DNA of 64,000 bases from positions 496,001-560,000 of the forward strand of contig NZ_PDBS01000001.1 in assembly GCF_002572525.1 (NCBI RefSeq), given 5' to 3'. Shown here in pieces: positions 39,214 to 58,783 of this stretch (the stretch's first letter is position 1; each line of letters starts with the position of its first letter). Both the position numbers and the translations under genes were made by a program. The notes under the pieces are model-generated. The model made no database searches. It was not told the DNA's origin and saw only the letters and a program-made list of their open reading frames with translations. Source of the DNA: Natrinema sp. CBA1119. Lineage in GTDB: Archaea > Halobacteriota > Halobacteria > Halobacteriales > Natrialbaceae.

Positions 39214-39251
39214 TATCGGAGAGATCCGTTGGCTTTCACTCGGTGGGCCGG

Positions 39252-39258: not shown

Positions 39259-39297
39259 ATTGTTCGGCCGCGGACGGCGGCCTTGTCGGGCAGTGCG

Positions 39298-40127: not shown

Positions 40128-40232
40128 CCGCACGGCAGCCCGCACTTCGCCGCGGGATTCGTCACACCCCGTGACACTCCTCGGACTCGACTGACGGGGA
40201 CTCCCTTTACCGGCCTCGTCGTAGCCAGTCCC

Positions 40233-41207: not shown

Positions 41208-41313
41208 CGGAACCGCCCACAGGGTAGTGACGGAACCGCCGAGGAGGAAACGATCAGTTCGGTATCGTATCGGCCTGAATCGCGTTCTATCGGGGAACCC
41301 GTTCGAGCGAGGA

Positions 41314-41772
41314 TCACGTTCCGGTGGCCGCCTGCGTCGACATCTCACGGTCCCCGGCGTACGCAATGTACGCCGACAGTGCCGCGACGACCAACCCGGA
41401 GACGACGTTACTCCAGAGTAGCCCCGTGCTCGCTTCCTCGAGGCCACCCAGAGCGAACTGCCCGGCGATCACCCAGTGGGAGACGGCGAGCCACAGCGCC
41501 AGCAGGGCGGCCAGCGACATGACGCCGATACTGGTGGAGTTGTCGATGGTGATCCGGTAGTAATTGTAGCCCGCGAACACGACGATCGCGCCGCCGATCA
41601 ACAGGTTGTTCCACAGCACGGAGTTGGCTGCCTCGTAGACCAGCGGCGAGACGGCCAGCCACAGCCCGATCAGGGAGACGATCCCGCTCAGCCACCGCTG
41701 GCCGGCCGGTTCACCCCGTCCGCGAGTGTGCGATTCGTCGGTCGTCGGGTCGTCGGTCGCGGACTCGCTCAT
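41314..41772 (-). CDS. SPW repeat membrane protein
   Basis: 152 residues from ATG 41772; upstream in-frame sequence lacks a consistent composition. The N-terminal 25 residues are polar (SESATDDPTTDESHTRGRG), then five membrane helices are seen. The repeat unit W-L-A-V-S-P (GLWLAVSPLVYEA and ALWLAVSHWVIAG) with flanking glycines is the SPW motif, found twice. The function of the family is unknown. A TATA-like region is not obvious. Confidence 0.82.
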   Translation of the reverse strand: MSESATDDPTTDESHTRGRGEPAGQRWLSGIVSLIGLWLAVSPLVYEAANSVLWNNLLIGGAIVVFAGYNYYRITIDNSTSIGVMSLAALLALWLAVSHWVIAGQFALGGLEEASTGLLWSNVVSGLVVAALSAYIAYAGDREMSTQAATGT

Positions 41773-42198
41773 ACCGTCCACCGATACTCCCTCGACCGGG
41801 CTCAAAAACCGCGCCGACCGTTCCGTCTCGTCCGAGAAAATCGGCTGGGAGATCGCCCCGCTCAGTCTCGAGTAAGGAATCACGACCGGCTCCAAATCGG
41901 CATTATGGAACGCCAATCAGAGACTGGCGACAGCCGCAGCTATCGGTCGAGGCGCGGATAGCTGTAAGACGATGTTACTCTCGAGTCCGACGGGAGCGCT
42001 CCCACATTCGCTGAGGGGACACCAGTTGTGAGCAGGCAGCAGCGACCCGACGAACCGACGGGGAGGAACCCCCGTCCGGGGGAACAGCTATATGCCGCGA
42101 CTCGGATCACGCAAAGGAAAGCGGTGTCCCGGAACCGAGTCGGCGCTCCCACCGACCGCTCTCGTCGCGAGGGGTGTCCCTACCGGACTAGCCACGAT

Positions 42199-45100
42199 GT
42201 GTTCTCGAGTGCATACCTCGAGGACCACCTTCCCGAGACGGACGCCTGGGACAAGATCGACGAAGACGAGCTCCGAGCGGCGTTCGATGAGATTAGTGCC
42301 TGCTGGGAACGAGTGAGGGAAACAGTTGCGAACGAAAGCCGATCCCGGCTCGAGGAAGCGTTCGTCCGACCCGTGTTTCGGACGCTGGGACACTCGTTCG
42401 TGCGCGACGAGCGGACTGATCGAACGCAACATCGAGCGGACTACGTCTTCCTCGAGTCCGACGGCGCTCGCGACGTATTCGAGTGCACCGGAGCCGACGG
42501 CAACGACGACAGCCACGGTAACGGAGACAATGACGAAGCCATCGTCGCGATCGCCGACGTCAGGCGCTGGGAACGCGCGCTCGAGGCCCGCGGGAGCGGT
42601 GAGCGCGAACGCGACGCCGAGACGCCGTGCTACCGGATCCACGCCGCCTTGCGCGAGTCGTCGGTCGAGTGGGCCGTGCTCACGAACGGCCGGCGGTGGC
42701 GACTCTACACCGAGCGGACGGGCCATCGACTGGACGCGTACTACGAGATCGATCTGCCGGCCGTACTCGAGACGGGTGACCTCGAGGCGTTCAAATACTT
42801 CTACCTGTGTTTCCGCCGCGACGCCTTCCTCGAGGACACCGAGGGAGACTGCCTGCTCGACGACCTCTACGACCGGTCCGCCGAGTTCACTCGTGAGATG
42901 GGGGCGACGCTCGAGGAGAACGCCGCCGACGCGCTCGAGGTCCTCGCGCGGGGATTCCGTCGATATCCCGGGAACGATCTCGACGAGGCCCTCAGCGCGA
43001 AGGAGTTCGACGTGCTTTACGACGCCTCGCTCGTGGCGCTCGTTCGACTCCTGATCGCGTTCGCCGCGGAGAGTCGAGGTCGCCGGCCCGCCGAACCGAG
43101 CGGCGACCGCGGAGAGACAGCGGACGATACCGGACCTGCTGAGCCGGCGACCCTCCGATCGCTTGCTCGGTCCATCGCGGCCGAATCCGACGGTTCGGGT
43201 CCGTCGTACACCGATCAAACGGCCGAGCTCTGGTCGCGACTAGAGGAGCTCGATTCGCCGATCGGCCGCGGGAATCGATCCGGCGAGGACGACAGTCACA
43301 CCGCTCGATTCCTCGAGAACCACCGCATCGGCGACGCGTCGCTGGCGACGGCTATCGACTTGCTGGCTCGACGGCAGGCCGACGGTGGCGAGAAACCGTT
43401 TATCGACTACTCGTCGCTCGACGGTCGCCGCCTCGGCGATATCTACGAGGGGCTGCTCGAGTACCGGCTCGCGATCGCCGACGAACCGCTGGCGCTCGCT
43501 GACGGCGAGTACGGTCCCGCGAGCGACGGCGACACCGTCGCGGTCGCGGCCGGCGAGGTGTATCTGACCGCGGACGGCGACCAGCGGAAGGCGTCGGGGT
43601 CGTACTACACCCCGGAGCACGTCGTCGAACACGTCGTCGAGAAGACGGTGGGGCCGCTCCTCGAGGAGATCCGGGCGAAGTTCGCCGCCGTCGATACCGA
43701 CTGTGACGGCGGACTCGCCGACGCCGATATCGACCGGACGGACGGCGTCGCCGAGCGCGCGTTCGACCGCTCGATCCTCGACCCCGCGATGGGGACCGGT
43801 CACTTCCTGACGTGCGCGCTCGAGTACCTGACGCGCGAGATCGTCGCCGCCGAAGACGCGGCGGCTCGAGCGGGCATCGAGTCCGTGCCGGCGGAGCGCG
43901 GTGTGGACGAGATACGGCGGCGGGTCGCCCGGCGCTGTCTCTACGGCGTCGACCGGGATCCCCTCGCTGTCGAGATCGCGATCGCCTCGCTGCAGCTCCG
44001 AACGCTGTCCGCCGAGGGGCCGCCGGTGGCCCTCGATCACCACCTGAAAACCGGCGACGCGCTCGTCGGGAGCGACCTCGAGGCGCTCGCTGACTGCGCA
44101 TCGAGCGACGATCTCGGTGGCGATGACGCGACGCGTCTCGAAACCGAGCCGACTCGATCCGCGGTATTCGGGCGGACGGACGGTCGAGAGCGGCGCGACC
44201 GGCGACAGCGACTCGAGGCGATGGCGAACGTCCACACCGCCCGCGAGTTTGGGCTCGAGGGAGTCCCTGACGACGCGCTCGAACGGCTCGTTGCCGCGCT
44301 CGAGAGCGACGACGACTGGGAGACGCTCGCTCGAACCGAGTGGTTCACCGCGGCCCAGCGGCGGGCCGACGAGGAGGGGTACTTCCACTGGGAGCTCGAG
44401 TTCCCGGAGATCTACGCCGACGGCGACGACGACGCTGACGGCGACAGCGACGGTGACGACGACCGACTCGAAGCCCCCGGCTTCGACGCGGTGCTCGGCA
44501 ACCCGCCCTGGGTCGCGACCGCCGGTCGCGGGACGATCAGCGCGACCATCGACGCAAGCCTGCGCTCCTACCTCGAGGACGCGTTCAGCGCGACCGAGAA
44601 CCAGTTCGATCTCTACGTCGCGTTCTACGAACAGTCGATCCGACTGTCCCGGGACGGACGGGTCGGCATCGTCGTCCCCGATTCGATCCTCGCTCGCGAG
44701 GGGAACGAGCCGATCCGGGAGTACGTCCTGAGCGAGACGTCGCTCGCGGAAATCGTCAGGCTCGGCACCGCGTTCGACGGCGTCGAGAGCGGCGCGGCGA
44801 TCCTCGTGAGCGGCGGTGACGGAACCGACGTCCGCTGTGCCGACGCGACGACGGAGGCGGACCTCGCGTCGCTCTCCGCCGACTCGGATCGGGCGAATTC
44901 GATCCCCGCAAGCGTGTTCGAAGCGCAAGACGCGAACCGGTTCCTCGTCTATCTCGACCGCGAGACGCGGTCGGTCTGCTCGACCGTCGCCGCCCATCCG
45001 CCGCTGGGGGACGCCGTCTCCATCTCTCGCGGCGAAGAGATCAGCAAGCGAGCGGACATCCTTCGGGAGCGGTCAGGACCGACGACGCGCCCGATCGCCC

Positions 45101-46113
45101 CCGGGAGCGCCGTGTGCCGATACGGGCTCGACGCCGACGAACTCCGGTTCGTCGAGCCGGCCGACCTCGAGAAACCCACCCAAAACTACGAGAGCCCCAA
45201 GCTGCTCGTCCGACAGACGAGCGACTCGCTCGTCGGGACCTACGACGCTGACGGCCTCGCCACGATCAAGTCGGCCTACAACGTCCGCAGCGACGCCGAC
45301 TCGCCGGCCGAGTTGAAACACCTCCTGGGCGTGTTGCACTCGTCGGCGCTCGCGTTCTACCACCACTACACGCACGCCGCGTACCGCGCCGTCTTCCCGC
45401 AGATCAACCAGTCGACGCTCGAGGGGCTCCCCGTCCCGATGGCCGACGGGCCCGACGCCGAACTCGTCGCGGCCGTCGAGAAACGGCTCGCGCTCACCGC
45501 CGACCGGTCGGCGATCGACCTGTATGTCCCCGACTATCTCGGCCGGGATCCGAACGGGCCGTCGCTCGGCGATCTCGACGCCGCTCGACGGACGGACGGC
45601 GTCGCGGCGACGAAACTTGCGTCGACGACCGAGGAGTGGCCGAACCTGCGGCTCGGTTCGGTCGCGGTCGACTCGAGCGATTCGGACGTCGTCCTCTTGG
45701 CGACCGTTCGGTACAAACCCGACCCCGCCGCGGCCGCCGAGACCGATCGGTGGGGCTACGCGGAAACCGATCCGATTCCGGCCGTCGAACTCGTCGATGT
45801 CGAGACCCGACTCGCGGGGCTCGTCGAAGCCGTCGTCCCCTACGCCACCGAGGCGGGCGACGGCGTCGCCGGCTTCAGACCGACCGCCGCGAAGACGATC
45901 TCGCCACTCGACCGCCTCGAGGCGCTGACGCTGCCCCGTCCGACCGAGGTCGAAGACGGGCTTCGGCGGTTTCTCGACGCCCGAGACCGGGCCGCGGAAC
46001 TCGAGACGGAGATCGACGCGACCGATCGGCGGATCGACGATCGCGCGTGTTCGCTGTACGGACTGACGGACGCTGAGCGCGAGATCGTGCGTCGCAAATT
46101 CGACGAGGGGTGA
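42199..46113 (+). CDS. Eco57I-type restriction-modification-like protein (Type IIG-like DNA methylase with N-terminal nuclease domain)
   Basis: 1,304 residues from GTG 42199 (VFSSAYLEDHLPETDAWD). An ATG at 42028 would add 57 Arg-rich residues without homology-like character, so the later start is preferred. Residues 80-122 look like a PD-(D/E)xK nuclease: RADYVF (Asp81), E95-C-T97, then IADVRRW (Asp120-Val-Arg122). The usual catalytic Lys is Arg here, so cleavage may be lost. The methylase core has motif I DPAMGTGHFL at 528 and motif IV NPPW at 768, the Eco57I adenine-N6 type. The C-terminal 300 residues probably bind the target. No partner genes are nearby. Confidence 0.85.
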   Translation: MFSSAYLEDHLPETDAWDKIDEDELRAAFDEISACWERVRETVANESRSRLEEAFVRPVFRTLGHSFVRDERTDRTQHRADYVFLESDGARDVFECTGADGNDDSHGNGDNDEAIVAIADVRRWERALEARGSGERERDAETPCYRIHAALRESSVEWAVLTNGRRWRLYTERTGHRLDAYYEIDLPAVLETGDLEAFKYFYLCFRRDAFLEDTEGDCLLDDLYDRSAEFTREMGATLEENAADALEVLARGFRRYPGNDLDEALSAKEFDVLYDASLVALVRLLIAFAAESRGRRPAEPSGDRGETADDTGPAEPATLRSLARSIAAESDGSGPSYTDQTAELWSRLEELDSPIGRGNRSGEDDSHTARFLENHRIGDASLATAIDLLARRQADGGEKPFIDYSSLDGRRLGDIYEGLLEYRLAIADEPLALADGEYGPASDGDTVAVAAGEVYLTADGDQRKASGSYYTPEHVVEHVVEKTVGPLLEEIRAKFAAVDTDCDGGLADADIDRTDGVAERAFDRSILDPAMGTGHFLTCALEYLTREIVAAEDAAARAGIESVPAERGVDEIRRRVARRCLYGVDRDPLAVEIAIASLQLRTLSAEGPPVALDHHLKTGDALVGSDLEALADCASSDDLGGDDATRLETEPTRSAVFGRTDGRERRDRRQRLEAMANVHTAREFGLEGVPDDALERLVAALESDDDWETLARTEWFTAAQRRADEEGYFHWELEFPEIYADGDDDADGDSDGDDDRLEAPGFDAVLGNPPWVATAGRGTISATIDASLRSYLEDAFSATENQFDLYVAFYEQSIRLSRDGRVGIVVPDSILAREGNEPIREYVLSETSLAEIVRLGTAFDGVESGAAILVSGGDGTDVRCADATTEADLASLSADSDRANSIPASVFEAQDANRFLVYLDRETRSVCSTVAAHPPLGDAVSISRGEEISKRADILRERSGPTTRPIAPGSAVCRYGLDADELRFVEPADLEKPTQNYESPKLLVRQTSDSLVGTYDADGLATIKSAYNVRSDADSPAELKHLLGVLHSSALAFYHHYTHAAYRAVFPQINQSTLEGLPVPMADGPDAELVAAVEKRLALTADRSAIDLYVPDYLGRDPNGPSLGDLDAARRTDGVAATKLASTTEEWPNLRLGSVAVDSSDSDVVLLATVRYKPDPAAAAETDRWGYAETDPIPAVELVDVETRLAGLVEAVVPYATEAGDGVAGFRPTAAKTISPLDRLEALTLPRPTEVEDGLRRFLDARDRAAELETEIDATDRRIDDRACSLYGLTDAEREIVRRKFDEG

Positions 46114-46388
46114 CGGCGCGGCGACAGTACCGCGTGCTCGTCGCGATCGGAATGCACCATTCACGGAGACAGTACGGCTCCCGACTGGAGGGGTGGCGGA
46201 TCGGACGTCTGCAGTGAGGATGTGACGGTGGACCGATCGCTCGAATCCGAACGGTCAGCGATAGGGCAACGGCTGGTGTGACAACCGCAAACGACGCGCT
46301 CGCGATTCGGATCCGCCTCCCGACACTACTGCGGTGACGGTCTCCGTGCTGCTCGGCTCGATCTCGAGAAAAAACGAGCCGATGGCCG

Positions 46389-46757
46389 TTATGCACACGG
46401 CGGTTCGCGGTACTGCGGCGGATCGATTTCGCGGAGGAAACCGACCCACATCCACCAGTCGTAGTCGTAGTGGTGCCAGTCGACTCTGACCGTGCTGTTG
46501 GACGAGTCGACCTCTCTGACGATGCCAGCGTATCCCTGATCGATAAGCTGATAGTCGCCCGACCGATCTCTGTTCTCCCAACCGGGGGCCGCGTTCCCCT
46601 GATCGGGCCACACCTGCACCTGATCGCAGACTTCGAATGGACTGGCCGCGGCAGCGCTGCCAGTCACTGCTACGGAACCGACACCAGTAGCCAACACGAT
46701 GCCGGTCGATCGCAAGACGGTTCGACGGGTTACGTTACTGCCTTCTCCATTCGCCAT
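46389..46757 (-). CDS. Small Tat-secreted protein with aromatic-rich SH3-like domain
   Basis: 122 residues from ATG 46757. The twin-arginine motif is in VTRRTVLRSTGIVLATG, followed by an Ala-rich cleavage region. The mature part, about 85 residues, has aromatic-rich beta strands (VQVWPDQGNAAPGW, TVRVDWHHYDYDWWMWVGFL) and two Cys, one at the C terminus. The pattern resembles a bacterial SH3-type barrel, which is a guess. Composition is less acidic than its neighbours. It lies in the accessory region, and I do not know its function. Confidence 0.6.
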   Translation of the reverse strand: MANGEGSNVTRRTVLRSTGIVLATGVGSVAVTGSAAAASPFEVCDQVQVWPDQGNAAPGWENRDRSGDYQLIDQGYAGIVREVDSSNSTVRVDWHHYDYDWWMWVGFLREIDPPQYREPPCA

Positions 46758-47052
46758 GCGAGAGTGATTTATCCAGAGAGATGGATGAAATTTTCCCAAA
46801 AATTCAATCTGTGAATCGGATAGAGGACCACCTCATTCGATCCGTCCAGTCGACACGGACGGCCCGTCTCTCGCCGGGACGCATGCTACCGGCTGCCGCT
46901 GGCCGACTACGACGGTTGCGCACTCGACGCGTCGACGTGGAGTTTCAAAGGGGGAACGGCTGGGTGCCGTCGATCAGTTCTCATTCGGACTTGATTACTC
47001 CCGCACCTCGAGTCGTTTACCCGGCGATTCGACGACATCGAGGCCCTACCTG

Positions 47053-47136
47053 TATAGTAGCCACTGAACGTCATTGTACGCCTGATCGACCGACAACTGT
47101 CCGATCAGTGTGTGAATCGTTTCAGTGGCTACTATA
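47053..47136 (+). mobile_element. 84-bp MITE, copy 1
   Basis: Perfect 16-bp terminal inverted repeats: TATAGTAGCCACTGAA at 47053-47068 and its complement at 47121-47136. The internal 52 bp are AT-poor and non-coding. The reverse complement matches copy 2 at 48168-48251 at 73 of 84 positions without a gap. No target-site duplication is obvious. The family was probably mobilised by a transposase of a resident IS that is not in this window. Confidence 0.8.
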
Positions 47137-47457
47137 GAAGTACACCGGCTCGGACTCCGGGTGCGCGAAGCCGTCGGCGGCCAACACCGTATTCATCTCG
47201 ATATCGGCGGTGGCCGGACACAGCGGCCAGGGCTCCTGTTCGACGTCCGTATACCGGACCGAGCCGTCGGGAGCCAAAAACAGCTCGTCGATCAGCCGGT
47301 AGGCCGCCTCGTATGTAGCGGGTCGGGGACCGGGATGGCGTCGCCGACTGCTGAATCGAATCTGACCGTCGGCGCCTTCGCTCTCCGGGGCCGCCTCGAC
47401 GTCGAGCGAGATGCAGGCGTAGCTCTCCACCGCGCTGATGAACGAATATCCGAACAA
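47122..47457 (-). pseudogene. Truncated gene of unknown family ending in MITE sequence
   Basis: 111 residues are readable from ATG 47457. The last codons, FYSSH and the stop at 47122-47124, lie in or next to the terminal repeat of MITE copy 1, so the original C terminus was probably cut off by insertion and replaced. The remaining protein is soluble (SLDVEAAPESEGADGQIRF, YEAAYRLIDELFLAPDG). I do not recognise it. It may instead be an intact gene that happens to use a MITE stop codon. Confidence 0.5.
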
Positions 47458-47540
47458 ATCAATACGCGTGTCTCAAAATAACAGACCGCACCCACCGATT
47501 TCTTCCTGTATCGCTCTGTGATCGGTGACCGGTCACTCGA

Positions 47541-48092
47541 TCATGAGGTGTCGCCCCGAGCGAGTAATCGATCGACCATCGATCGGCCGAGGCCGCTCGC
47601 GTCGTCCTCCGCGTTTTCGGCCATTATTGCGATCTTTACCTCATTGACCTCCTCGAGCAGTTCGATCGCATCGAGACACCACGCGTACAGTCCGAGCTCG
47701 AGCTGGCGTCGCACTTCCTCCTCAGAACGCGGCGAATAGACGTTGACGCGGCCACCTTCGGCAAGGACGCGAGACGTCTTCGCGACGACGCCGAGATCGA
47801 CGAGATGATTCAGGTGGCGATTGACGACGCTCTGGTCGCGGTCGATCGTCTCGGCGAGTTCGCCGATGGTCGTTTCGCCGGCGGCCATCACTCGCCGACA
47901 GACCTCGAGTTCAGTCGGCGAGATATCGAATACGTCGTGCATTATCTCCTCGACATCCGGTGACTCGGTCGGATCCGTCGTCTCAACGGTGTCCATCGCT
48001 CCGTCGCAACATCTCGCGTCCCCGTCGCTCAATCGAAGGTCGCCACAGGTCGAACATTCGTAGATAACCAGCTCGCTGTCGGGTGATGACAT
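47541..48092 (-). CDS. Winged-HTH regulator with N-terminal zinc ribbon
   Basis: 183 residues. The first 35 residues hold a zinc-ribbon-like Cys pattern (YECSTCGDLRLSDGDARCCDG). A winged helix-turn-helix follows at about 60-125: DISPTELEVCRRVMAAGETTIGELAETIDRDQSVVNRHLNHLVDLGVVAKTS, MarR/TrmB-like, with wing RVNVYSPRS. The C terminus is a long amphipathic helix suited to dimerisation. It sits between the two MITE copies. Target genes are unknown. Confidence 0.78.
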   Translation of the reverse strand: MSSPDSELVIYECSTCGDLRLSDGDARCCDGAMDTVETTDPTESPDVEEIMHDVFDISPTELEVCRRVMAAGETTIGELAETIDRDQSVVNRHLNHLVDLGVVAKTSRVLAEGGRVNVYSPRSEEEVRRQLELGLYAWCLDAIELLEEVNEVKIAIMAENAEDDASGLGRSMVDRLLARGDTS

Positions 48093-48167
48093 GGCTGTCG
48101 GTACGAGACCGGCGGAGAAAACAGTTGCAACAGTCTCGATGCAGTGTATTTCGAACCATCCTGTCCC

Positions 48168-48251
48168 TATAGTAACAACTGAAACGATTCACACACTGAT
48201 CGCACAGTTGTCGTACGATCGAGTGTGCAGTGACGTTCAGTGACTACTATA
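48168..48251 (-). mobile_element. 84-bp MITE, copy 2
   Basis: Opposite orientation to copy 1. The terminal repeats are imperfect here (TATAGTAACAACTGAA left, TTCAGTGACTACTATA right, differing near positions 8-10 of each end). It matches the reverse complement of copy 1 at 73 of 84 positions. The pair flanks about 1.0 kb holding the truncated gene and the zinc-ribbon HTH gene. No protein is encoded. Confidence 0.78.
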
Positions 48252-48335
48252 GTTTCGGGAACACTGAACGATTAAGACGGCCGATTCCGCGACTAATGGC
48301 GTTCCGACGGTCTGGATTTAGTAAGATCATATTAG

Positions 48336-48737
48336 CCGTTACTTGTCGAGGGCCCGTTCGACGAGTGGGAGTTCCCCGGCCAGGAGGACGAGGAGGCGTC
48401 GAACGCTGAGGAATCGGCAGATGGAGACGCCGACTTTCAGTTAGCAGGTACCGCATCGGCCTGGCAAGGGGTGGCTCCAGCTGCCATCGCGGACACGGAG
48501 AACCCGACACTCCAACTCGAGGCGGGGACCGAATACGTACTCGTCTGAGAGAACGCCGACGGACTCCAGCACAACTTCGCGATCGAAGACGAAAACGGGG
48601 ACCAGCTTCAGGCGTCCGAACTCGTCGACGACGAAGGGGCTACACAGACGGTCACGTTCACGGCTACCGAAGAAATGGCCGAGTACTACTGTCAGGTCCA
48701 TCCCCAGAGTATGCGCGGCGCGATCGAGATTGGCTGA
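48336..48737 (+). pseudogene. Plastocyanin/halocyanin-like blue-copper protein, nonsense codon and no 5' end
   Basis: The frame 48336-48737 is coherent except for TGA at 48546-48548, where the homologous gene at 49352-50680 suggests a Trp (TGG to TGA). Around it the cupredoxin fold is intact: DGLQHNF with the first His ligand, and EMAEYYCQVHPQSMRG with Cys, His and Met of a type 1 copper site. No start codon or signal peptide is visible upstream; MITE copy 2 lies 85 bp before it. It is closest to the cupredoxin domain of the neighbouring CHRD protein, so it is a decayed paralogue. Confidence 0.75.
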
Positions 48738-48801
48738 CGATAGCGCCGTCCCGAGGTTGGACATCGTCACGGGGTCGGTCCGGTGCTCGAGCGCCGGTCC
48801 G

Positions 48802-49080
48802 TTATTCCTCGCTGGGAAGCGCGACCGGATCGCCGAGTCGAATCCCCATCGGTGCCGGACCGGGCGTCTCGTGGCCGCCGATGTAGCCGAGATAGAGTGC
48901 CCTGTTGACGGTGCCGATATGACTGAACGCCTGTGGGTAGTTTCCGAGATGCGCACCGGATTCCGGATCGATCTCCTCCACGATGAGTCCGAGCGGATTC
49001 AGGTACGAACACAGCGACTCGAATCGAGACTGCGCCTCTTCGACGCGACCAGAGAGAGCAAGCGCATCGATATCACCCAC
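48802..49080 (-). pseudogene. C-terminal fragment of a GH15 glucoamylase/trehalase-like enzyme
   Basis: 92 readable residues. ALALSGRVEEAQSRFESLCSYLNPLGLIVEEIDPESGAHLGNYPQAFSHIGTVNRALYL matches the end of glycoside hydrolase family 15 proteins (the EEIDPxTGxxLGNxPQAFxHxGxxNxAxxL block). The catalytic N-terminal barrel is absent upstream, so only a remnant is left. It is not expected to be functional. Confidence 0.6.
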
Positions 49081-49300
49081 CTTGAGTTCTCTGCCATCTT
49101 CCGAGAGGGATTACTACGACCTCCGATAACAGGCTTACTCGACTATCAGGATCTTGTGAAGAGTCACTAACTGGATATTGAACGCACTGTCGATGATGAA
49201 GGAGCGGCGGTTATCAAACTGCCACGTGAAACTGAGGGATCGAAGATAATCAGCGACTATACTGGACAAAAATCACGAAAACGGCATAGTTATGGTTATT

Positions 49301-49319
49301 AGCGCAAAAATTATGCGCT
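49301..49319 (-). terminator. Hairpin downstream of the cupredoxin-CHRD gene
   Basis: AGCGCA (49301-49306) pairs with TGCGCT (49314-49319) around a 7-nt A/T-rich loop, 33 bp past the stop at 49352. On the minus strand it is followed by A/T-rich sequence. Confidence 0.3.
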
Positions 49320-49351
49320 GTAGCGTGGGTATCGGCCGTACTCGAGACTGT

Positions 49352-50680
49352 TCAGTCATTATCTTCGATTTCGAGTTCCCCTTCGCGTTCGCCCTTACGG
49401 ACCCGAACGCGAAGTTCGCCAACCCTGTCACCGCTCTCGGGGATCGTAACTTCGATCTGTCCGCTCTCGTCGGTCTGGCCCGCAGGTCGACGGTCGCCAT
49501 CTCCGTCCTCCACTTCGACATTGGCATCGACGACCGGTTCGCCGTCGGCGGTCGCCGTGATCGTGACGGTGTTTCCGGGTGCGACGGTCCCCTCGTGGGT
49601 GAGTTCGATGTCGCCTTCCGTTTCTCCCGTCACTGGGCCGTCTCCCGGAGCGTCGTTCGGGTTGGCAACATCCCCGTTCGAGTCTGACACGTCGAGAGAG
49701 ATTTGCGTACCGACCTGCATCGACTCGCCTTCAGTGACGGATGCGTCGACGCGCTCGGTGAACTCCACGGTGGCCGCGTCGGCGGTCCCGGTCTGACCTC
49801 TGATCTCGCCACCGGGGTTCGCCTCGGTGTGGACGTTCACGTACGCGGTCTCTCCGCGCAGCTCGTCGAGGAGGGCATCTAGCGACTCGCCCTCGAGCGG
49901 GCCGACGAGGTCGTCGCCCGTGATCGTCCCCTCCGCGAGGAGCCCGCTGCCCGAGACCCCCTGCTCGAGCGGGTCGGCGAACGCGTCCTGCTCGTCTCGT
50001 TGCCCGAACAACCACGCGACTACGTCGCCGTCCTCGTCGGAGCCGCCGAGGTGGATATGCGCCTGCGTGGCGTTCTCGATCTCGGCGACCAGCAGGACGT
50101 AGTGGAGTTCGTTCCCGTCCGCTCCGAGACCGAAGAGGGCCGCTCCCGACGCCGCCGTCTCGACGGGGTCGGTCTGCTGCTCGCCAGAGAGCTGGCCGGC
50201 GCTGAAGGCTTCCGAAATCGCCATCTCGTCGCCAGCAGCGGCCGCCCCATCTCCCGTCGTGATCTCCCCGCGCATCGAGTCTGGATGTACTTCACAGTAG
50301 TACGTGCTCATCTCCGCGGTCGCCTCGAACTCGAGGGACTGGGTTTCGCCCTCCGTCTCGAGAATCGCCGTCCGCTCGAGCGCGTTGCCGTCGGCGTCGG
50401 CGATCACGACGTTGTGCGGTGCCCCGTCGACGTTCGTCCAGGTAAACGTGTAGGTCTCACCGGCCCGTACCTGCAGCGTCGGGTTCGTCTCGCCGCTGAT
50501 TGCCGCGGGTGCAGTGCCCATCCATCCGTCCGCGTCACCGTCGAACGCGAACTCGCTCCCACCCTCCTGCGTGGCCGCGGCCATGCCGACTCCTGCAACG
50601 GCGCCCGTTGTGGCGACGAGCTGCAGGAAGGTCCGTCGAAAGCTATCGTTTCCGAGAGTCCGGTATGAGTCGTCTCTCAT
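49352..50680 (-). CDS. Tat-secreted blue-copper (plastocyanin-like) and CHRD domain protein
   Basis: 442 residues from ATG 50680. A Tat signal (FRRTFLQLVATTGAVAG) leads to a cupredoxin domain, about 44-145, with type 1 copper ligands His89, Cys129, His132 and Met136. A CHRD domain follows, about 150-290 (ATQAHIHLGGSDEDGDVVAWLFG, YVNVHTEANPGGEIRGQ). The last 150 residues are acidic and beta-rich with an Ig-like or CarbopepD-reg pattern (VTITATADGEPVVDANVEVEDGD). Pairing of a cupredoxin with CHRD in one secreted protein is uncommon. It is upstream of the decayed paralogue and 0.7 kb downstream of the giant multicopper oxidase on the same strand. Confidence 0.82.
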   Translation of the reverse strand: MRDDSYRTLGNDSFRRTFLQLVATTGAVAGVGMAAATQEGGSEFAFDGDADGWMGTAPAAISGETNPTLQVRAGETYTFTWTNVDGAPHNVVIADADGNALERTAILETEGETQSLEFEATAEMSTYYCEVHPDSMRGEITTGDGAAAAGDEMAISEAFSAGQLSGEQQTDPVETAASGAALFGLGADGNELHYVLLVAEIENATQAHIHLGGSDEDGDVVAWLFGQRDEQDAFADPLEQGVSGSGLLAEGTITGDDLVGPLEGESLDALLDELRGETAYVNVHTEANPGGEIRGQTGTADAATVEFTERVDASVTEGESMQVGTQISLDVSDSNGDVANPNDAPGDGPVTGETEGDIELTHEGTVAPGNTVTITATADGEPVVDANVEVEDGDGDRRPAGQTDESGQIEVTIPESGDRVGELRVRVRKGEREGELEIEDND

Positions 50681-51406
50681 GGCAGCCCGGTCTGCGACGA
50701 CGATAATGAGGGGGACGTATCGTTCCAGTAGGCAGTCCCCACGTGTCGGAGACTGTCGATATGTCGGACACATCACCTCTCTTCGGTGATACGCGTCTAG
50801 CTCCGCGGCACTTGCTAGATGGGAAACCGAGGTACTGCGGGGTAGTCAGGCGGTAGTAGAGGTCACCAGTACTGAGATGAATTCGGGATTATCAGTTCGG
50901 AATAGCTTGTAGACCGTTTTCACCCGTTTCACCACATGTCCGTGAAACTATACGGTCTCGAGCGCTGAAATCGGGCAGATTCTATTTGAACACTCGCCTG
51001 AATACGTAATATGCGCCTCGAGTCTGATTTACTCACGAGGGCGCACCTGAAACCCTTTCAGGTCCCGTCTTTCGGCAGGGCTCGATGCCCGGCAGTCATG
51101 CGAACGTAAAAGCCGGATTCGCGAACCGTCTCTCACGTGGTCCGTTCGTCGACTACGTGATCGACTCGAGTCAATTCGAGAGGGGAGTGTGGTCCGAAAA
51201 CGCGTTTCCGTTCGGAGCGCGTCGTGGTACGGCCGTCTCCGTAGATAGGCCGAGCAGCATACCGAGTATCGGATCGGCGGCATCGCCTTCGCGGATCCGT
51301 ACCGCTCAACGAGGCGTCTCCAGTCGGCTATCGGAGAGCAAGGACCGCTCGGACAGAAGCGGGTGGGAACGACCGCTCGCCGCGTCACGAGCGGGTGACC
51401 GCCTCG
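50681..51406. other. Intergenic stretch with one strong hairpin
   Basis: 726 bp. Frames open here are Arg/Ser-rich and lack haloarchaeal codon character, so I see no gene. A perfect hairpin, ACCTGAAA/TTTCAGGT (51045-51063, 3-nt loop), is followed by CCCGTCTTT and may end a transcript. An AT-rich area near 50878-50920 and 50985-51015 could hold promoters. Confidence 0.45.
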
Positions 51407-54400
51407 TCAGCGAACGTCGTCTGCGTCGGCCACTTCGACGGACGGCGGTAGCTTCTTCGTGCCGTCGAAGACGTACTGATGCTTTCCGTTCTTCGCGGAG
51501 AGGCGGATTTCGTTCTTCTTGATGCTGACGGCGGAGCCAATTCGCTTCCCGGGCGTTCCGAGGAACTGGACGTCGGCGTTCGACAGGTCGGTGAGATCGC
51601 TCTCGTCGACCGGCCCGTGGAATAGGTAGGCCGCGCCGGCGTCGTCGCCGGCGATGCGGCTGCCGGGCACGCCGATCAGCACGTCGGTCGTCCCGTTGCC
51701 GGTGGCGTCGCCGCGAGCGACGGTCCAACCGGTGCGGGCCTCCGGCTTCAGTTTCTTCTTCTCGATCCGATCCGGCAGCGGTTGGACCGGCTCGGCGAAG
51801 TCGTCGTCCTCGCCAACCCGGAAGATTCCCCACGCGCCGGCCTCGAGGCGGCGGCGCATTTTCGTCTCCATGTAGATGTGGTCACCGACGCTGTCGACGA
51901 GGCCGCCGGCACCGCCCAGCGGATCGATTTTGCGCGATCTGCCCGGCATGAACTGGTCGCCGACGCCGACGATTTCCGACTCGGGGACGTCCTGAGCACG
52001 GAGCCACTGGTGGGCGGCAAGATGGAAGTCGAGCCCGCGAGCCTTGTCGGCGGAGTGGCTGACGCGGAACCGGATGGGATCCTCGACGAAGGCGTTCATC
52101 ACGGGCGTAGCCGGGTCGCCGTGGACCTCCGAGTCGAAGACGAGGTGCTGGTCGTCCGGGCCGGTCTGGAACCGCCGGATGAACGGCTCCGCGCGGTTAT
52201 TGATCGCCATGTAGCCCTGATCCTCAGGATCGTCCGGGATCTGGTTACACGCCGCATCGGCGTCGTCGTCCGGTCCCGGCGGCACGACGCAGTCGTCAGG
52301 ATCGTCGCGGTTGACGATGTACCGGCCGTCGCTGAACGACAGCGGGAACTCGCGAAACGCCGGGCCGTCGTCGGGCACGATGATGCTCTCGGTCGTCATC
52401 GACGGCGCGAAGCGATCGCCGTGGTCGGCCAGCGGCTCGGCCGTGGCGGGATCGAGCCAGATCGACCCCTCTGGCTCGACGTGCAGGTGGCCGAACGCGC
52501 CGTGATGGCGGTGGCCGCGCACGTCTGCCATGTCCCACAGGATGGACGTGCCGAGCAGCTCGTCGGCGAACCAGCGGTAGGTGATCGTCTCGCCCGGCGG
52601 GATCGTCTGGTCGAAGTTGAACCCGATGGTCACACCCTGCGAACCCTGGGCGTCCATCTCGAGCCGCTGTGGGCTGAGTGAGGCGCGGTTGGACTCCTCC
52701 CACTCGATGTTCAGGTCCTGCTCCCGGGTGCGCATCTCGGGGTGGGCGTGATCGGGGGCGAACTCGACCGGCAGCTCGTTGGTGAGGTTGATCTGGATGC
52801 AGTCGCCCTCGTTGGCCCGGAGCGTCAGCGGCTTGGACGGGCGCTCGCCGGCCCGGATCTCCTCGACGTGTTCGTCGAGCGCGATCACGATCCCATAGGG
52901 ATCGTGGTCGTCGTACTCGTTGAACACGATGTCCGTCTGGAAGACGGTCACGTCGTACTCGCGGACGACCGACCCGTCGGGACACGGATCGCCCGGCTCG
53001 GGCGCCCGCGGCGGAATCTCGCCGACGTTGGGGTTCTGACGAGCCGGCTCGTCCGCCGGGAACGGCGGCTTGTCGAGCCGTCCCACGCCGTCGAACTCCT
53101 CGAGGCGCTTTTTCAGCCGCTTCGGATCGATGTCCGTCTCGTGTTTCAGTTCCTTGCGCGTCAGCCCGAGCGCCGCGAGGATATCCTCGAGAGTGAGGTC
53201 GCCGTACAGGAGTTTCGAGAGGAGTCCCTCGTGGTTCGTCTTCTCGAACGCCTCGACCAGATCGCGCTGCCACTGCTCGTCGAGGGCGTGTTTACCGAGG
53301 TCGTACTTCCGCTGGACGTCCTCGGAGTAGGTGAGCCACGCCTTGCGGCCCAGTTTCTTCCAGTCAAGGAACGGGGCCGGGTGGCCCATCTCGCGGAGCT
53401 GGTCCTCGGTGATCTTCCCTTTCGGAGCGCCGCGGTCGGGCAGCGGCTGCAGGTGATCGACGCTCGCGCCGAAGACGCGCTGGACGCCCCACATCCCGTC
53501 CCAGAGGTCGTCGGTGACGCCCGATCCGTAGAGGTGGTCGTAGACGGGGATCCCGTCCGGATTGGGCAGGTCGTCGGCCTCCGCGTCGAGGAAGAACGTG
53601 AACGCCTCGGCGACGTGGATGGCCTGCGAGGCCGTATCCTCCGGACTCGCACCGGCCGGGGTGATCTTGGTCCCGTCGATGAAGAAGTTGTGCTGCTCCT
53701 CGTAGGCCGGCTGGACCACGCGGATCCGGACCGGGTCGCCGTCGTAGGTCTCCAGCACCGGCGTCGGCGGATCGCCGTTAACGTACGAGCTGTGGACGTA
53801 CGCCGGGTCCGGATCGGGCCCGCGGCGGTAGTAGGGCGCGTTCCGGTAGTTGATCGCCATCACGCCGGCGTTCCGATTGTGTTCCTCGAGTTCGTTGACG
53901 AATTGGCCCTGCCGGTTGCGAAGTGGCGCGAAGTCGTGGTACAGCAGGGCGAATTCGCGGAAGTCCTCGCCGTCAGGCTGGGAGACGATCGCCTGGGTCC
54001 CAGCTTCGATCGGGTCGCCGGTGTGGGGATCGTACCACTCGGAGTCCTCGGGTTCGACGATCAGCGCGGCGAAGTGGCCGTGCATGACCTCGTCGATCCC
54101 GTCAATGTGGTCGTGGAAGAGGATCGTCCCCTCCTCGTCGGCGTACCAGCGGTAGGTCATCTGGCCGCCGGGCTCGGCCGCCTGATCGTAGTTGAATCCG
54201 TTGGCCAGCGAGTCCGAGCCCAGCACGTCGTAGGAGACGAAGTGGATGTGGTTCGACCGTCCCGACGGCATCAGGTTCGTCAGCGTAATGTCGACGCAAT
54301 CGCCGACGTTGGCTCGAATTACCAGCGGCTCGGGGTTCATCTTCCCCGTCAGGACGTCCGCGACGTCCTCTTTGAGGACGAACACCTGCCCGTCGGGGTC

Positions 54401-56476
54401 GTGGTCGCCAGCGTCGTTGTAGACGAGTTCGGCCGGGAGCGCGACGATGTTGTACTCGCGCACCGGCGCGTCCTCGCCCGCCGGCGGCCCGCCGAACTCC
54501 TCGGGAGCGATCTCGGGATCGCACGGATCAGTGTACGGCGCGCCGGGAACGATATCGCCGAGCGCCGCGGCCTCCTCGGGCGTCGGATCGCGGATGAAAT
54601 CGTACGGCGGCTTCGGCGGCGCTTCGCCCTGCTCCCCGGGGATGAAGTCGGGGAAGCCGGGGGTCTCGTCGTCCGCGTCCAGCGGCGGCGCGTTGTCCTC
54701 GAGCAGTTCGAGATCCTCCTGGACTTTGTCGTAGACGCGCATGCTCGCCCACATTCCCTCGGCGTAGTGGGGGAAGAGGTGGCAGTGCAGCAGGTAGTCG
54801 CCGGTGGACCCGTGGGCACCGCCGGCACCGACGTCGAACGCCTCGTCCCAGTCCATCCCCGGCCGGACCGTCTCGAGCGGGTCCGCGATCCCCTCGAGGT
54901 CGTCGTCATCGTCGTCGAGGTCCAACTCGTCGTCGACGAGGTTCAGCCCGTCCTCAAGCCGGTCGGGCACCTCTCCGGGGCCGAAGCCGATCGGCCGGAC
55001 GTCGAAGAAGCCGACGCCGCCGTGGGCGGTGACCAGTTTCGTCTCGTGGGTCGCGCCGAACCCGAGGTTCTGCACGTCGAGGGTGTCGACATCCTCGCGC
55101 TCGCCGACTTCCTTCCAGCGGTGGCCGTGGAGGTGGTGGGAGTGGCGTTCCTCGTGGGACGCGCCGACGGCGACCAGCTTGACCGGATCGCCCAGATACG
55201 TCCGGTAGACGTTGTCGCCGCCACCAGGGTCGCCGAAGATCCAGGAGTTGTAGAAGTACTCCTCGACATCCTCGGCGTCCGGATCGGGGTCGTCGACGAG
55301 CTCGAGCCCCTCCTCGCCGAGCCTGATGCCGGTCGGATCGGCCCGGTAGTTGATCGCGTGGACCGTCTGGGGCTCGTCGGAGCCGGGCCAGATCAGCTCC
55401 CTGCCGTCGGCGGGGTAGACTCCCTCCGGGGTGTGGTAGTGGATGATGAACTCCCGGTGGGCGGGCTCGTCCTCGCCGGGCACGTGAACGTCCGCGCGGA
55501 CGCCGCTACGGTGTTCCTCGCCGGTCTCGGGATGAGTCCACGTCGCTTCCGGCGGCTCGACGACGGCCGAGCCGAACAGGCCGCGGGAGACGAGGTTAGC
55601 CTCCTCGGGCGGCGCGTCGGCGCTGTCGAACGCCGGATTGGCGAGGTCGTGGAAGAAGTGAGTCCCCTCGTGGGTGGCGTACCACTCGTAGCTGACCGTC
55701 TCCCCGGGAGCCGCGGTCGTGTCCAGGTTGTCGCCGACGCTCGCGCCGTCGGACTCGGTCACCTGGTAGGGCAGCGCCGTCTGGTGCATCGAGGCGTGCC
55801 GATCGAGGTGGTTGACGAACTCGATCTCGAACACGTCGCCGACGTTCGCGCGGATCGTCAGCGGCTGCAGGACTGACGTGTCGACGTCGCCCAGCTTCCG
55901 CTTTGCTTTCGCCTTCTTCTTGCGCGCTCGGTGGAGCGCCTTCCGCGCTTTCTTGCGCTCCTTGTCGTTTTTCGCCTTCTCCTTGCGTTTCTTCGCCTCT
56001 TCGATCTCCTTCTCCGCCGTCTCGAGTTTCTTCTCCGCTTTCTTCCGCTCTTTCTTATTGAGATCGTCGCGGTGGTAGTCTTTCTTCTGACGCTTCTTAT
56101 CGCGCGCGTCGTCCGGCAGATCCGCGAAGGCGTCGTCGGGCGTCACGTCCGAGGCGGCCAGTGCCTCCACGAGATTCTCCTCAAGGACGTAGACGGTCGC
56201 CTTGGGCTGATGAAGCCCGAACGCGTTGTAGACGACGTCGGTCTCGATCGCGTGGACGGTGAACTGTCGGACCTGTCCGCCCGGCGCCGGTTCGTCGCCC
56301 GGTATCGTCTCCGTCTTGTCGCCGTTACTGGCGGAATCGCCGTTGAGACACCCCGCTGCGGCCAGCATCCCTGCGGACGCGGCCGACCCCTTGAGGAACG
56401 ATCGTCTCGTCGGGAAGTCGAGACTGCTCGGCAGTCGGTTCTCCTCTTCCGTTTTGTTCGTATTGTCCGGATCCAT
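51407..56476 (-). CDS. Giant Tat lipoprotein: three fused two-domain multicopper-oxidase modules (six cupredoxin domains)
   Basis: 1,689 residues. Arg24-Arg25 in PTRRSFLKG and lipobox Cys43 (MLAAAGC) indicate a Tat-exported lipoprotein. Three modules start alike at about 70, 679 and 1172 (VVYNAFGLHQ, LVYNDAGDHD, IVFNEYDDHD). In module 1, domain 2 keeps the type 1 and trinuclear set: HSHHLHGH (445-452) and HCHLFPHYAEGM (564-575). In module 2, domain 1 keeps HIH (743-745) and HDH (788-790). Modules 2 and 3 lack the Cys. Residues 126-195 are a Lys/Arg/Glu-rich coiled coil; FG-GAP-like repeats sit near 1580-1625. Multicopper oxidases oxidise metals or phenols with O2; the substrate here is an inference, with Mn(II) or Fe(II) plausible. 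Confidence 0.85.
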   Translation of the reverse strand: MDPDNTNKTEEENRLPSSLDFPTRRSFLKGSAASAGMLAAAGCLNGDSASNGDKTETIPGDEPAPGGQVRQFTVHAIETDVVYNAFGLHQPKATVYVLEENLVEALAASDVTPDDAFADLPDDARDKKRQKKDYHRDDLNKKERKKAEKKLETAEKEIEEAKKRKEKAKNDKERKKARKALHRARKKKAKAKRKLGDVDTSVLQPLTIRANVGDVFEIEFVNHLDRHASMHQTALPYQVTESDGASVGDNLDTTAAPGETVSYEWYATHEGTHFFHDLANPAFDSADAPPEEANLVSRGLFGSAVVEPPEATWTHPETGEEHRSGVRADVHVPGEDEPAHREFIIHYHTPEGVYPADGRELIWPGSDEPQTVHAINYRADPTGIRLGEEGLELVDDPDPDAEDVEEYFYNSWIFGDPGGGDNVYRTYLGDPVKLVAVGASHEERHSHHLHGHRWKEVGEREDVDTLDVQNLGFGATHETKLVTAHGGVGFFDVRPIGFGPGEVPDRLEDGLNLVDDELDLDDDDDDLEGIADPLETVRPGMDWDEAFDVGAGGAHGSTGDYLLHCHLFPHYAEGMWASMRVYDKVQEDLELLEDNAPPLDADDETPGFPDFIPGEQGEAPPKPPYDFIRDPTPEEAAALGDIVPGAPYTDPCDPEIAPEEFGGPPAGEDAPVREYNIVALPAELVYNDAGDHDPDGQVFVLKEDVADVLTGKMNPEPLVIRANVGDCVDITLTNLMPSGRSNHIHFVSYDVLGSDSLANGFNYDQAAEPGGQMTYRWYADEEGTILFHDHIDGIDEVMHGHFAALIVEPEDSEWYDPHTGDPIEAGTQAIVSQPDGEDFREFALLYHDFAPLRNRQGQFVNELEEHNRNAGVMAINYRNAPYYRRGPDPDPAYVHSSYVNGDPPTPVLETYDGDPVRIRVVQPAYEEQHNFFIDGTKITPAGASPEDTASQAIHVAEAFTFFLDAEADDLPNPDGIPVYDHLYGSGVTDDLWDGMWGVQRVFGASVDHLQPLPDRGAPKGKITEDQLREMGHPAPFLDWKKLGRKAWLTYSEDVQRKYDLGKHALDEQWQRDLVEAFEKTNHEGLLSKLLYGDLTLEDILAALGLTRKELKHETDIDPKRLKKRLEEFDGVGRLDKPPFPADEPARQNPNVGEIPPRAPEPGDPCPDGSVVREYDVTVFQTDIVFNEYDDHDPYGIVIALDEHVEEIRAGERPSKPLTLRANEGDCIQINLTNELPVEFAPDHAHPEMRTREQDLNIEWEESNRASLSPQRLEMDAQGSQGVTIGFNFDQTIPPGETITYRWFADELLGTSILWDMADVRGHRHHGAFGHLHVEPEGSIWLDPATAEPLADHGDRFAPSMTTESIIVPDDGPAFREFPLSFSDGRYIVNRDDPDDCVVPPGPDDDADAACNQIPDDPEDQGYMAINNRAEPFIRRFQTGPDDQHLVFDSEVHGDPATPVMNAFVEDPIRFRVSHSADKARGLDFHLAAHQWLRAQDVPESEIVGVGDQFMPGRSRKIDPLGGAGGLVDSVGDHIYMETKMRRRLEAGAWGIFRVGEDDDFAEPVQPLPDRIEKKKLKPEARTGWTVARGDATGNGTTDVLIGVPGSRIAGDDAGAAYLFHGPVDESDLTDLSNADVQFLGTPGKRIGSAVSIKKNEIRLSAKNGKHQYVFDGTKKLPPSVEVADADDVR

Positions 56477-56911
56477 GCTAAATAGCTCTCGTGTGAGTGT
56501 CTGCTAACACAGGATCCGGTACCGGAATATCAGGTATTGTAATATGATTCCTTCCGAAACGTACGGACTTCCTGACTCCTTCGAGGCTAGAATCCGCTAT
56601 TTTCAGCAATTACTGAAAGACGGGATTCGAACACATTTCGCGACGAAGAACCAGTCTCTCGTCACGGCATCCCGGCTGTGTCGTGCGATTCTTCCAGAAA
56701 TGTTCGCAAAGGCATTGCCGTTTCGTCTCGAGAACGGACGCGAAATCGTCAGCGGCCGGTCGATATCGGCGAGATACCGACATTCACAGGTAGGGGAACA
56801 CAACAAGGAGATAGTGACATCCAGTTGGTGTTTTGGAGAGAGACATGGAGCGGTGCGAGCGGACGACGGAATCACGCGCGTCGCCAGCGAAGTAACCGGT
56901 AGCATAACTCC
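56477..56911. other. Region upstream of the multicopper oxidase
   Basis: 435 bp. The first 80 bp probably hold the oxidase promoter on the minus strand (an AT-rich ATATTACAATACCTGATATT on that strand). The rest has open frames of mixed composition; none looks like a family I know. It runs into the broken HTH_10 gene. Confidence 0.35.
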
Positions 56912-57468
56912 TCACGACGAGTCCGTTCCGAACTGTACGGCGGAGATACCGTCGGCGCACCACCGGTCAGTGTCCGCTGGAACCGCGAATGATAACGGAT
57001 CGATCCCGTCGGCGAGGCCGTGCTGCCCTTTTTTGGGTGACGGGGACGGAGTCCGACGTGGACGCTTTCTCGGCGGCCGCGCGGACGGAACCGGCGATAG
57101 AGCGCTTGACGGCGGTCGACACGGTCGGAGATCGGACGCTGTTCCGCGCCGAGTGGGCCGAGGACGTGGACGGCGTCATCACCGGCATCGAGACGGCGGT
57201 GGCCACCGTCCTCGAGGCGACGGGCTCCGCGGTGGAGTGGCAGTTCGAACTGCGGTTCGCGGACCACTCCTGTGTCCGCACCTTTCAGCGGTACTGTACG
57301 GCACACGACATCGAGATCGATCTCGTGCGGATCCGCCATCTCGTCGACCCGGAACCGACGAGGTCGTACGGACTTACCGATATCCAGCGCGAAACGCTGG
57401 CACTGGCCTACGCACGGGGATACTTCCGTGAACCGCGAGCAGTGAGCCTCGCAGAGCTCGCGGCCGAG
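56912..57468 (+). pseudogene. Bat-type HTH_10 regulator, frameshifted and truncated
   Basis: An HTH_10 (bacterio-opsin activator) protein can be read in two frames. The first part (RIDPVGEAVLPFF) ends at a run of six T (about 57030-57035) with two stops just upstream, and the sequence then continues one frame over as WVTGTESDVDAFSAA and through YGLTDIQRETLALAYARGYFREPRAVSLAELAAEF. One T missing from the run would explain the shift. The helix-turn-helix is cut at about 57468, where the DUF7845-like fragment starts on the other strand. It is a dead gene. Confidence 0.7.
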
Positions 57469-58310
57469 TTCGTCGTCATCCCGCTGCCAGTAGACAGTCT
57501 GATCAGTGACGCTCGTTTGATATCCGACCTCGAGTTTGGGATGCCACCCGAACTCGTCAGGATCGTAATTGTCGGGATCCTTCATATAGTAGTGCTTGGC
57601 CTCCTTTCCGCTCTCATGGACTCGGACGATCTGTCCGGCCCGCTGATCGTTGCCGACACTGGTCACGTAGTCACCGGGGCGGTCGAGATTGTCTTCGACG
57701 TGTTTCCGATACCCAGAGCGATCAGATTCTAAGAGCGAATGTATCCGGGCGATCGGACCGTCCGCCGCATAGATCGGACCGGACTTCGACCGGAGCAGTC
57801 GAACAGACACTGCTGCGTCGACGATGTTGCTCGTCTTGTAGAACTCGTCGAAGTACCGTCGCGTGATCCCAAACGTCGCCGCTGCTTCTGCGAGTAAGTC
57901 GGAGTAGCGATCGAACTCGATGTTCGATCCCTGACCTGTGCATCGACGTACGGCGCGCCGAGGTCCATGTAGCCATTTACGTCTTTGACGGGACCAGTCC
58001 ATTGGACATCGTCGTCGTACGTCTCGTCTTCACGGACGGAATAGAGCCGGTACAGATACGCCGTCTCGAGATTATAGGACAAATCATCCCACGGAAGGAT
58101 TGACTGGTTGTCATAGTCAAGACAGACCCGCCAGGTCTCGCCACCAGACTCGAAAGTGGTGGACGGCTTTCCGTCATTGGTCCAGTCGTGGTTCTTCCGG
58201 ACGTCCGTAAGTGCGTAGTACGGCTTCAACCCATCCCGAATGAGATGGAAGTGACCGTCAAACTCGTGGCACTGGAACCGCAGGAACTTCCGCGCGCTCA
58301 CAGCGACCAC
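57455..58310 (-). pseudogene. DUF7845-like haloarchaeal mobile-element protein, frameshifted
   Basis: The N-terminal 125 residues from GTG 58310 (FQCHEFDGHFHLIRDGLKPYYALTDV, CLDYDNQSILPWDDL) and the rest from another frame (QGSNIEFDRYSDLLAEAAATFGITRRYFDEFYKTSNI to VYWQRDDDELGREL) fit one protein with a single 1-nt shift near 57930-57940. The end lies in the broken HTH_10 gene. The family is widespread on haloarchaeal integrated elements; I cannot say what it does there. The small genes just upstream overlap each other, typical of such cassettes. Confidence 0.6.
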
Positions 58311-58364
58311 CCAACTGTGAGCCGCTGTATGCGGGTAGCGGAAATTTCAAACCGGATCGCGCGG

Positions 58365-58493
58365 TCATTTTGCACGCCCGATCACCTCCGCTATGTGTCG
58401 GGTGATTGCTCCCGGAGATCGGAGCAGTGCGCCGCAGAGAGCCGAGATAACTTTGGACGAGTGACCGGCTCTCGCGATTTCCTTTCGAGTCAC
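58365..58493 (-). CDS. Possible 42-residue protein of the mobile cassette
   Basis: GTG 58493 overlaps the stop of the zinc-finger gene upstream, and the frame runs to TGA 58365 (VTRKEIARAGHSSKVISALC and onward). It is basic and helical and could be a small helix-turn-helix, but it is too short to recognise. It is the second member of the overlapping cassette between tRNA-Ala and the DUF7845-like gene. Confidence 0.3.
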   Translation of the reverse strand: MTRKEIARAGHSSKVISALCGALLRSPGAITRHIAEVIGRAK

Positions 58494-58660
58494 GGCTGAC
58501 ACCTCCCATCCTCGAGCGCCCGGCAGCGCTTTTTCGGATAGTCGATTTCGCAACCGCAGAACTCACAGATCAGTGGCGAATGATAGTCGCCGGTCAGGCG
58601 ACAAATCACGCAAACCACCTCGATTCCCTCAAAAAACCGCCAACAGGCGTCTGCCTGCAT
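58490..58660 (-). CDS. Small Cys-rich zinc-binding protein
   Basis: 56 residues from ATG 58660. It has two Cys pairs in a zinc-ribbon arrangement, CVIC (C-x2-C) and CEFCGC (C-x2-C-x-C), with further Cys at positions near the ends (DACWRFF, KRCRALEDGRCQP). It starts 124 bp from the 3' end of tRNA-Ala(GGC) and overlaps the next small gene, as in integrated haloarchaeal cassettes. Function unknown. Confidence 0.45.
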   Translation of the reverse strand: MQADACWRFFEGIEVVCVICRLTGDYHSPLICEFCGCEIDYPKKRCRALEDGRCQP

Positions 58661-58783
58661 ACGATTTTCTGTTGAACTCTATTCTGTGAGGGAATAGTCG
58701 TCAGCCCAAAAGTGACAAACCCAGACGTTTTGAAGGTTCTACCTTGCGGTATAGAACCCTCTCTATGGTATTTAATTACGAGT

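Follow-up and report, generated by a model that had tools for sequence, protein, structure and literature searches.

A 64,000-nucleotide stretch of the genome of the haloarchaeon Natrinema sp. CBA1119 (the whole stretch analysed, hereafter the window) encodes a multicopper oxidase of 1689 amino acids, which raises the questions of the family to which this enzyme belongs, where it holds its copper, and whether that arrangement is new. Pfam recognizes Cu-oxidase_3 (E 2.1e-24) and Cu-oxidase_2 (E 2.8e-14) in the protein, and the top PDB sequence match is MnxG of Bacillus sp. PL-12 (9bxa_A, E 8.7e-197), which covers nearly the whole chain in aligned segments at residues 201-472, 550-1021 and 1144-1558. 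The initial annotation had proposed six fused cupredoxin domains, and this layout holds, as 9bxa_A aligns across domains 1-6. The gene and its parts are as follows.

51407-56476, minus strand: MnxG-type six-cupredoxin multicopper oxidase, 1689 aa (ORF call, Pfam, PDB sequence match)
56348-56410, minus strand: TAT signal RRSFLKGSAASAGMLAAAGC, residues 23-43, with a possible lipobox Cys (PF10518 / TIGR01409)
55472-56281, minus strand: domain 1, about residues 66-335, split by the lysine-rich insert, degenerate copper site (boundaries inferred from the MnxG alignment)
55886-56113, minus strand: lysine-rich coiled insert in a loop of domain 1, residues 122-197, with 26 K and 10 R among 76 residues
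54722-55465, minus strand: domain 2, about residues 338-585, T1 site and one trinuclear half (alignment)
54032-54469, minus strand: domain 3, about residues 670-815, the other trinuclear half (Pfam and alignment)
53432-53974, minus strand: domain 4, about residues 835-1015, degenerate T1 with H929 kept and Cys absent (alignment)
51803-52969, minus strand: domains 5 and 6, about residues 1170-1558, degenerate (alignment)
51620-51730, minus strand: weak FG-GAP-like stretch, residues 1583-1619 (PF01839, 21.6 bits, just under the Pfam cut-off of 22.1)

Export of the oxidase by the TAT route is predicted from its signal motif. The N-terminus has the TAT motif RRSFLKG and, after it, LAAAGC; TIGR01409 scores 19.4 bits, above its cut-off of 16.7. 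A Cys at the lipobox place is found only in the oxidase and its two closest relatives (G055 and G075), most relatives carrying a TAT signal without it, and the -3 position is A, not L. Classification as an archaeal TAT lipoprotein is thus plausible but weak.

The lysine-rich insert is likewise confined to the oxidase and its two closest relatives, and the lysine share falls to 2.2% across residues 198-1580. Many third-position changes between the copies leave the protein unchanged, indicating that the segment is coding. As a guess, the insert might bind a negatively charged surface. The closest relative found (G055) is 87% identical and has an ORF of 1476 aa from its first start codon. We infer that it is Haloterrigena turkmenica Htur_3146, a six-domain oxidase with a domain 2/3 site like that of the window oxidase (PMC3600357). 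Compared with the other two copies, it lacks 1 bp ahead of the lysine-rich stretch (L031:6233-6900), a deletion that cuts the signal from the enzyme body, so that its ORF is short and without a signal peptide; the lost base reflects either a sequencing error or a real frameshift.

Copper ligands and degenerate domains

The ligands expected of a multicopper oxidase are concentrated in domains 2 and 3, at positions assigned by alignment to MnxG.

55127-55144, minus strand: H445 (T1), H448 and H450 (trinuclear), equivalent to H281, H284 and H286 of 9bxa MnxG, counted from the alignment
54752-54787, minus strand: HCHxxxHxxxxM, comprising H564 and H566 (trinuclear) and C565, H570 and M575 (T1)
54242-54250, minus strand: H743-x-H745 (trinuclear)
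54107-54115, minus strand: H788-x-H790 (trinuclear)

The T1 set therefore consists of H445, C565, H570 and M575, and the trinuclear set of H448, H450, H564, H566, H743, H745, H788 and H790; every residue number given for these twelve positions in the initial annotation is correct. In 9bxa, the equivalents of H564, C565, H566, H570 and M575 are H334, C335, H336, residue 340 (Ala in the H340A construct) and M345. The entry is titled 'Structure of Mnx H340A complex', and its Ala 340 faces H570 within HCHLYPAFGIGM (counted from the alignment). As residue 340 lies opposite a T1 ligand, the T1 site of MnxG is in the same place.

When the ligand pattern was sought across haloarchaea, all twelve residues proved invariant in the oxidase and 20 relatives (21 aligned proteins from many genera). 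The contig scan reached haloarchaeal relatives only, and bacterial relatives were taken from plasmid records; by alignment, the twelve ligands are identical in Priestia megaterium MnxG and a Microvirga homologue, while a Rubrobacter homologue has F at the axial position. E443, which neighbours H445 of the T1 set, is conserved without exception in both haloarchaea and bacteria; H447 is invariant across haloarchaea and F in MnxG. Split or altered homologues also occur. In Natronococcus jeotgali (L066 / L046), the oxidase is divided between two overlapping ORFs of 916 and 666 aa, reflecting either a frameshift or a real two-chain version. A Pseudonocardia plasmid MnxG homologue (L082:3837-7604) has lost the HCH motif and carries G in place of the H790 ligand, and is likely an inactive six-domain oxidase, judging by these substitutions.

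Factor V is a structural case among six-domain proteins, and the oxidase could in principle be an inactive, structural surface protein of that sort. The loss of HCH in the Pseudonocardia homologue illustrates that such loss happens in the wider group. However, the twelve ligands are invariant in haloarchaeal copies that are only 47-61% identical to the window oxidase in the core, a divergent set, which argues for selection for the copper site and makes a purely structural role scarcely probable.

The remaining domains hold only remnants. Domain 1 keeps H231 and has lost its second HxH; domain 4 keeps H929, its HCH being gone; domain 5 has lost both HxH motifs; and domain 6 keeps H1485 and H1489 with the Cys absent. 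Single histidines thus persist without a complete T1 or trinuclear set, in line with the earlier description of domains 1 and 4-6 as degenerate. Together with the invariance of the twelve ligands, the incompleteness of domains 1, 4, 5 and 6 points to a single T1 site and a single trinuclear site where domains 2 and 3 meet, and the initial annotation had read the sequence rightly in placing all ligands of these two sites in domains 2 and 3. A second metal site at the ring-closing domain 1/6 interface (H231, H1324, H1485, H1489), which would mean that this is not a single-site enzyme, has some appeal in that 24 haloarchaeal proteins and Priestia MnxG all share H231, H1324, H1452 and H1489. Nevertheless, it appears improbable given that none of domains 1, 4, 5 and 6 has a complete T1 or trinuclear set and that the conserved histidines may be structural; leftover ligands at lost sites, moreover, have been known since 2013 (PMC3600357).

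Placement in the MnxG group

Predicted structure agrees with the sequence match. An AlphaFold2 model of residues 66-1058, of use for fold comparison only (mean pLDDT 66, with the lowest confidence in the site region of domain 2), finds 9bxa as its best match (Foldseek E 4.9e-62; VIA Z 31.8 over 748 residues at 3.6 A), followed by ceruloplasmin and factor V at Z of about 20. When only domains 2-3 (residues 326-832) were modelled, the mean pLDDT was 44.7 and the result useless, so the geometry of the copper site rests on homology to MnxG.

In one chain, the oxidase has six cupredoxin domains homologous to MnxG over the whole length, with T1 in domain 2, a trinuclear site drawn from domains 2 and 3, and the twelve ligands, which matches the definition of the MnxG group (PMC3600357). 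MnxG itself (Bacillus sp. PL-12 / Priestia megaterium, 9bxa, mnxEFG operon) shares the single chain of six domains and the same sites, aligns over its full length, and is the closest solved fold. In contrast to MnxG, to which it is about 40-41% identical (Priestia MnxG), the oxidase carries a TAT signal and is longer (1689 vs 1227 aa); its domain 1 contains the lysine-rich insert and its C-terminus is extended.

Ceruloplasmin and hephaestin resemble the oxidase in having six cupredoxin domains in a pseudo-threefold ring (Z of about 20). However, their trinuclear site lies between domains 1 and 6 and their T1 sites in domains 2, 4 and 6, whereas the oxidase has its trinuclear site between domains 2 and 3 and T1 in domain 2 only. 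The ceruloplasmin-family arrangement of a 1/6 trinuclear site with T1 in domain 6 is absent here, as domains 1 and 6 are incomplete, and the contrast with ceruloplasmin that had been drawn from the sequence is borne out. The aspartate D1025 at the iron-site T1 of ceruloplasmin has P569 as its counterpart in the oxidase, as in MnxG. In the trimeric two-domain laccases (Ssl1, SgfSL, SCO SLAC), T1 is in the second domain and the trinuclear site is formed jointly with domain 1 of the adjacent unit; these are separate chains, while the oxidase has three modules fused in one ORF with one of three sites kept. The Chlamydomonas/Dunaliella ferroxidase Fox1, known here from its description in PMC3600357, has a trinuclear site in domains 2/3 like the oxidase but, unlike it, further T1 sites in other domains (PMC3600357).

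The NCBIfam model NF041487 (copper_ox_MnxG, 1894 columns) gives the oxidase 208 bits, below its equivalog cut-off of 3100. As Priestia MnxG scores only 333 bits, the model describes another, longer MnxG and would fail to pick up the Bacillus enzyme. Its cut-off was dropped as a membership test for the wider group, since a true MnxG falls short of it too.

The suggestion that a six-domain oxidase with a single, shifted site was undescribed does not survive this comparison, as MnxG has all twelve ligands in register and the arrangement had already been stated (PMC3600357). In all bacterial six-domain oxidases analysed by Vasin et al. (2013), domains 2/3 hold the trinuclear site and only domain 2 a mononuclear one; Halorubrum lacusprofundi Hlac_1576 and Haloterrigena turkmenica Htur_3146 (1476 aa) were part of the set (PMC3600357). 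A literature search found a haloarchaeal MnxG-type enzyme in no other paper, and no assay on any haloarchaeal member. By alignment, the oxidase is thus a haloarchaeal member of the MnxG group, and its single domain 2/3 site is real and already described.

Accessory subunits, gene neighbourhood and substrate

Experiments support MnxG as the enzyme of Bacillus spores that oxidizes Mn(II) and Mn(III), and the subunits MnxE and MnxF are needed for activity of the Bacillus Mnx complex (PMC5622069). Priestia MnxG (1705 bits to 9bxa_A) sits in an mnxEFG-like operon on a plasmid, where two small genes directly before it encode matches to MnxE and MnxF of 9bxa. With these Priestia proteins as queries, no match in 14 oxidase-bearing haloarchaeal genomes fell below E 0.09, whereas the Priestia positive control was recovered, and small ORFs adjoining the oxidase gene matched nothing in NCBIfam. 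In contrast to the Bacillus-type system (MnxEFG), whose accessory subunits are not detectable in these 14 genomes, the haloarchaeal oxidase appears to be without recognizable MnxE or MnxF, though very diverged or analogous partners are possible.

Another exported copper protein is encoded downstream of the oxidase on the same strand.

49352-50776, minus strand: cupredoxin-CHRD gene, encoding a TAT signal, a plastocyanin-like cupredoxin, CHRD and a C-terminal Ig/MG-like region (PF00127, PF07452)

In Haloarcula amylovorans (L064), this fusion recurs 1.5 kb away from the oxidase, and elsewhere the oxidase is near a cupredoxin-only gene (L041/L062) or a CHRD-only gene (L067, L053, L040/L060). This association is suggestive, not universal, and could be due to chance because cupredoxins are so abundant, with matches in 113 of 149 genomes. 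The cupredoxin-CHRD protein may possibly be an electron-transfer partner of the oxidase.

These neighbours bear on the substrate. As the nearest characterized relative oxidizes Mn, Mn(II) is the first guess, and a reduced metal, Mn(II) before Fe(II), may be the substrate at about even chances; at only about 40% identity, however, carrying the substrate over from MnxG is unsafe. Other possible substrates are Fe(II), a different metal and a small blue copper protein. A rather unlikely alternative is that the same copper site receives electrons from a non-metal donor, either the adjacent cupredoxin-CHRD protein or an organic compound, making this a laccase-like or terminal-oxidase-like surface enzyme. 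The recurrence of plastocyanin-like cupredoxin or CHRD proteins near the oxidase in the window and at the loci named above, as well as the undetectable MnxE/F, fits such a donor, while the lack of a universal neighbour and the Mn oxidation of the nearest characterized relative (PMC5622069) speak against it.

Near the intact cupredoxin-CHRD gene, a halocyanin/plastocyanin-like gene (48408-48734, plus strand) has an in-frame TGA (..TEYVLV*ENADGLQHNF..) and is apparently a pseudogene. A further protein met near the oxidase, 1.5-3 kb away in four haloarchaeal genera (L067:16759-18300, L052:16722-18254, L054:5274-6782 and L062:15409-16998), is a TAT-exported repeat protein of about 500 aa with the pattern Q..N..A.AI, curlin- or beta-solenoid-like and without a Pfam match. 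Its family is present in 78 of 149 genomes, and a subfamily of >50% identity co-occurs with the oxidase in 6 of 11 genomes (Fisher P 8e-5, not corrected for relatedness).

Comparison with the sister genome G008 places the oxidase gene in a lineage-specific block.

47423-58780, no strand assigned: lineage-specific block with the oxidase, 11.4 kb, ending at the 3' end of tRNA-Ala

G008 is collinear with the window at 39167-47422 and again from 58781, and has about 3.2 kb of other genes where the block sits. Among signs of a mobile element, neither a duplicated tRNA end nor an integrase among the block ORFs with a Pfam match was found. The block is rich in gene fragments: C-terminal pieces of GH15 (48805-49080) and, at the block's edge, of DUF2071 (47125-47457), a BAT/HTH_10 regulator that matches just 33 of the 53 positions of the HTH model (56989-57732), and a DUF7845 piece (57732-58310). 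A tree of the haloarchaeal copies is patchy, and genus mates of the window organism carry three different clades.

Proposed mechanism and significance

From sequence and fold comparison, the oxidase is probably a TAT-exported enzyme of the MnxG group that passes electrons from the T1 copper of domain 2 to a domain 2/3 trinuclear cluster, where O2 is reduced, and does so without MnxE/MnxF. A substrate at the cell surface would give single electrons to the T1 copper (H445, C565, H570, M575), from which they would travel across the H564-C565-H566 bridge to the trinuclear cluster. There, held by H448, H450, H564 and H566 of domain 2 and H743, H745, H788 and H790 of domain 3, the copper ions would reduce O2 to water. 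The other four domains would close a ceruloplasmin-like ring that no longer carries such copper. Copper loading, the electron path and O2 reduction are all presumed from the family. A more elaborate proposal, which we hold only tentatively, is that archaea have an oxidase for Mn(II) (or Fe(II)) that is built like MnxG, dispenses with MnxE/MnxF and relies on haloarchaeal partners, namely a cupredoxin-CHRD protein and a curlin-like surface repeat protein; in this clade, the lysine-rich arm could help it hold on to a negatively charged mineral or cell surface.

As an active site at domains 2/3 had been described before, the view of six-domain oxidases stays as it was. What the locus adds is an oxidase that is patchy across haloarchaea, is represented by three separate clades in the genus of the window organism, and does without the subunits that Bacillus needs. 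If this oxidase does act on Mn(II), MnxG chemistry could be studied in a simpler system made of a single chain, and manganese oxides in brines might have an archaeal source.
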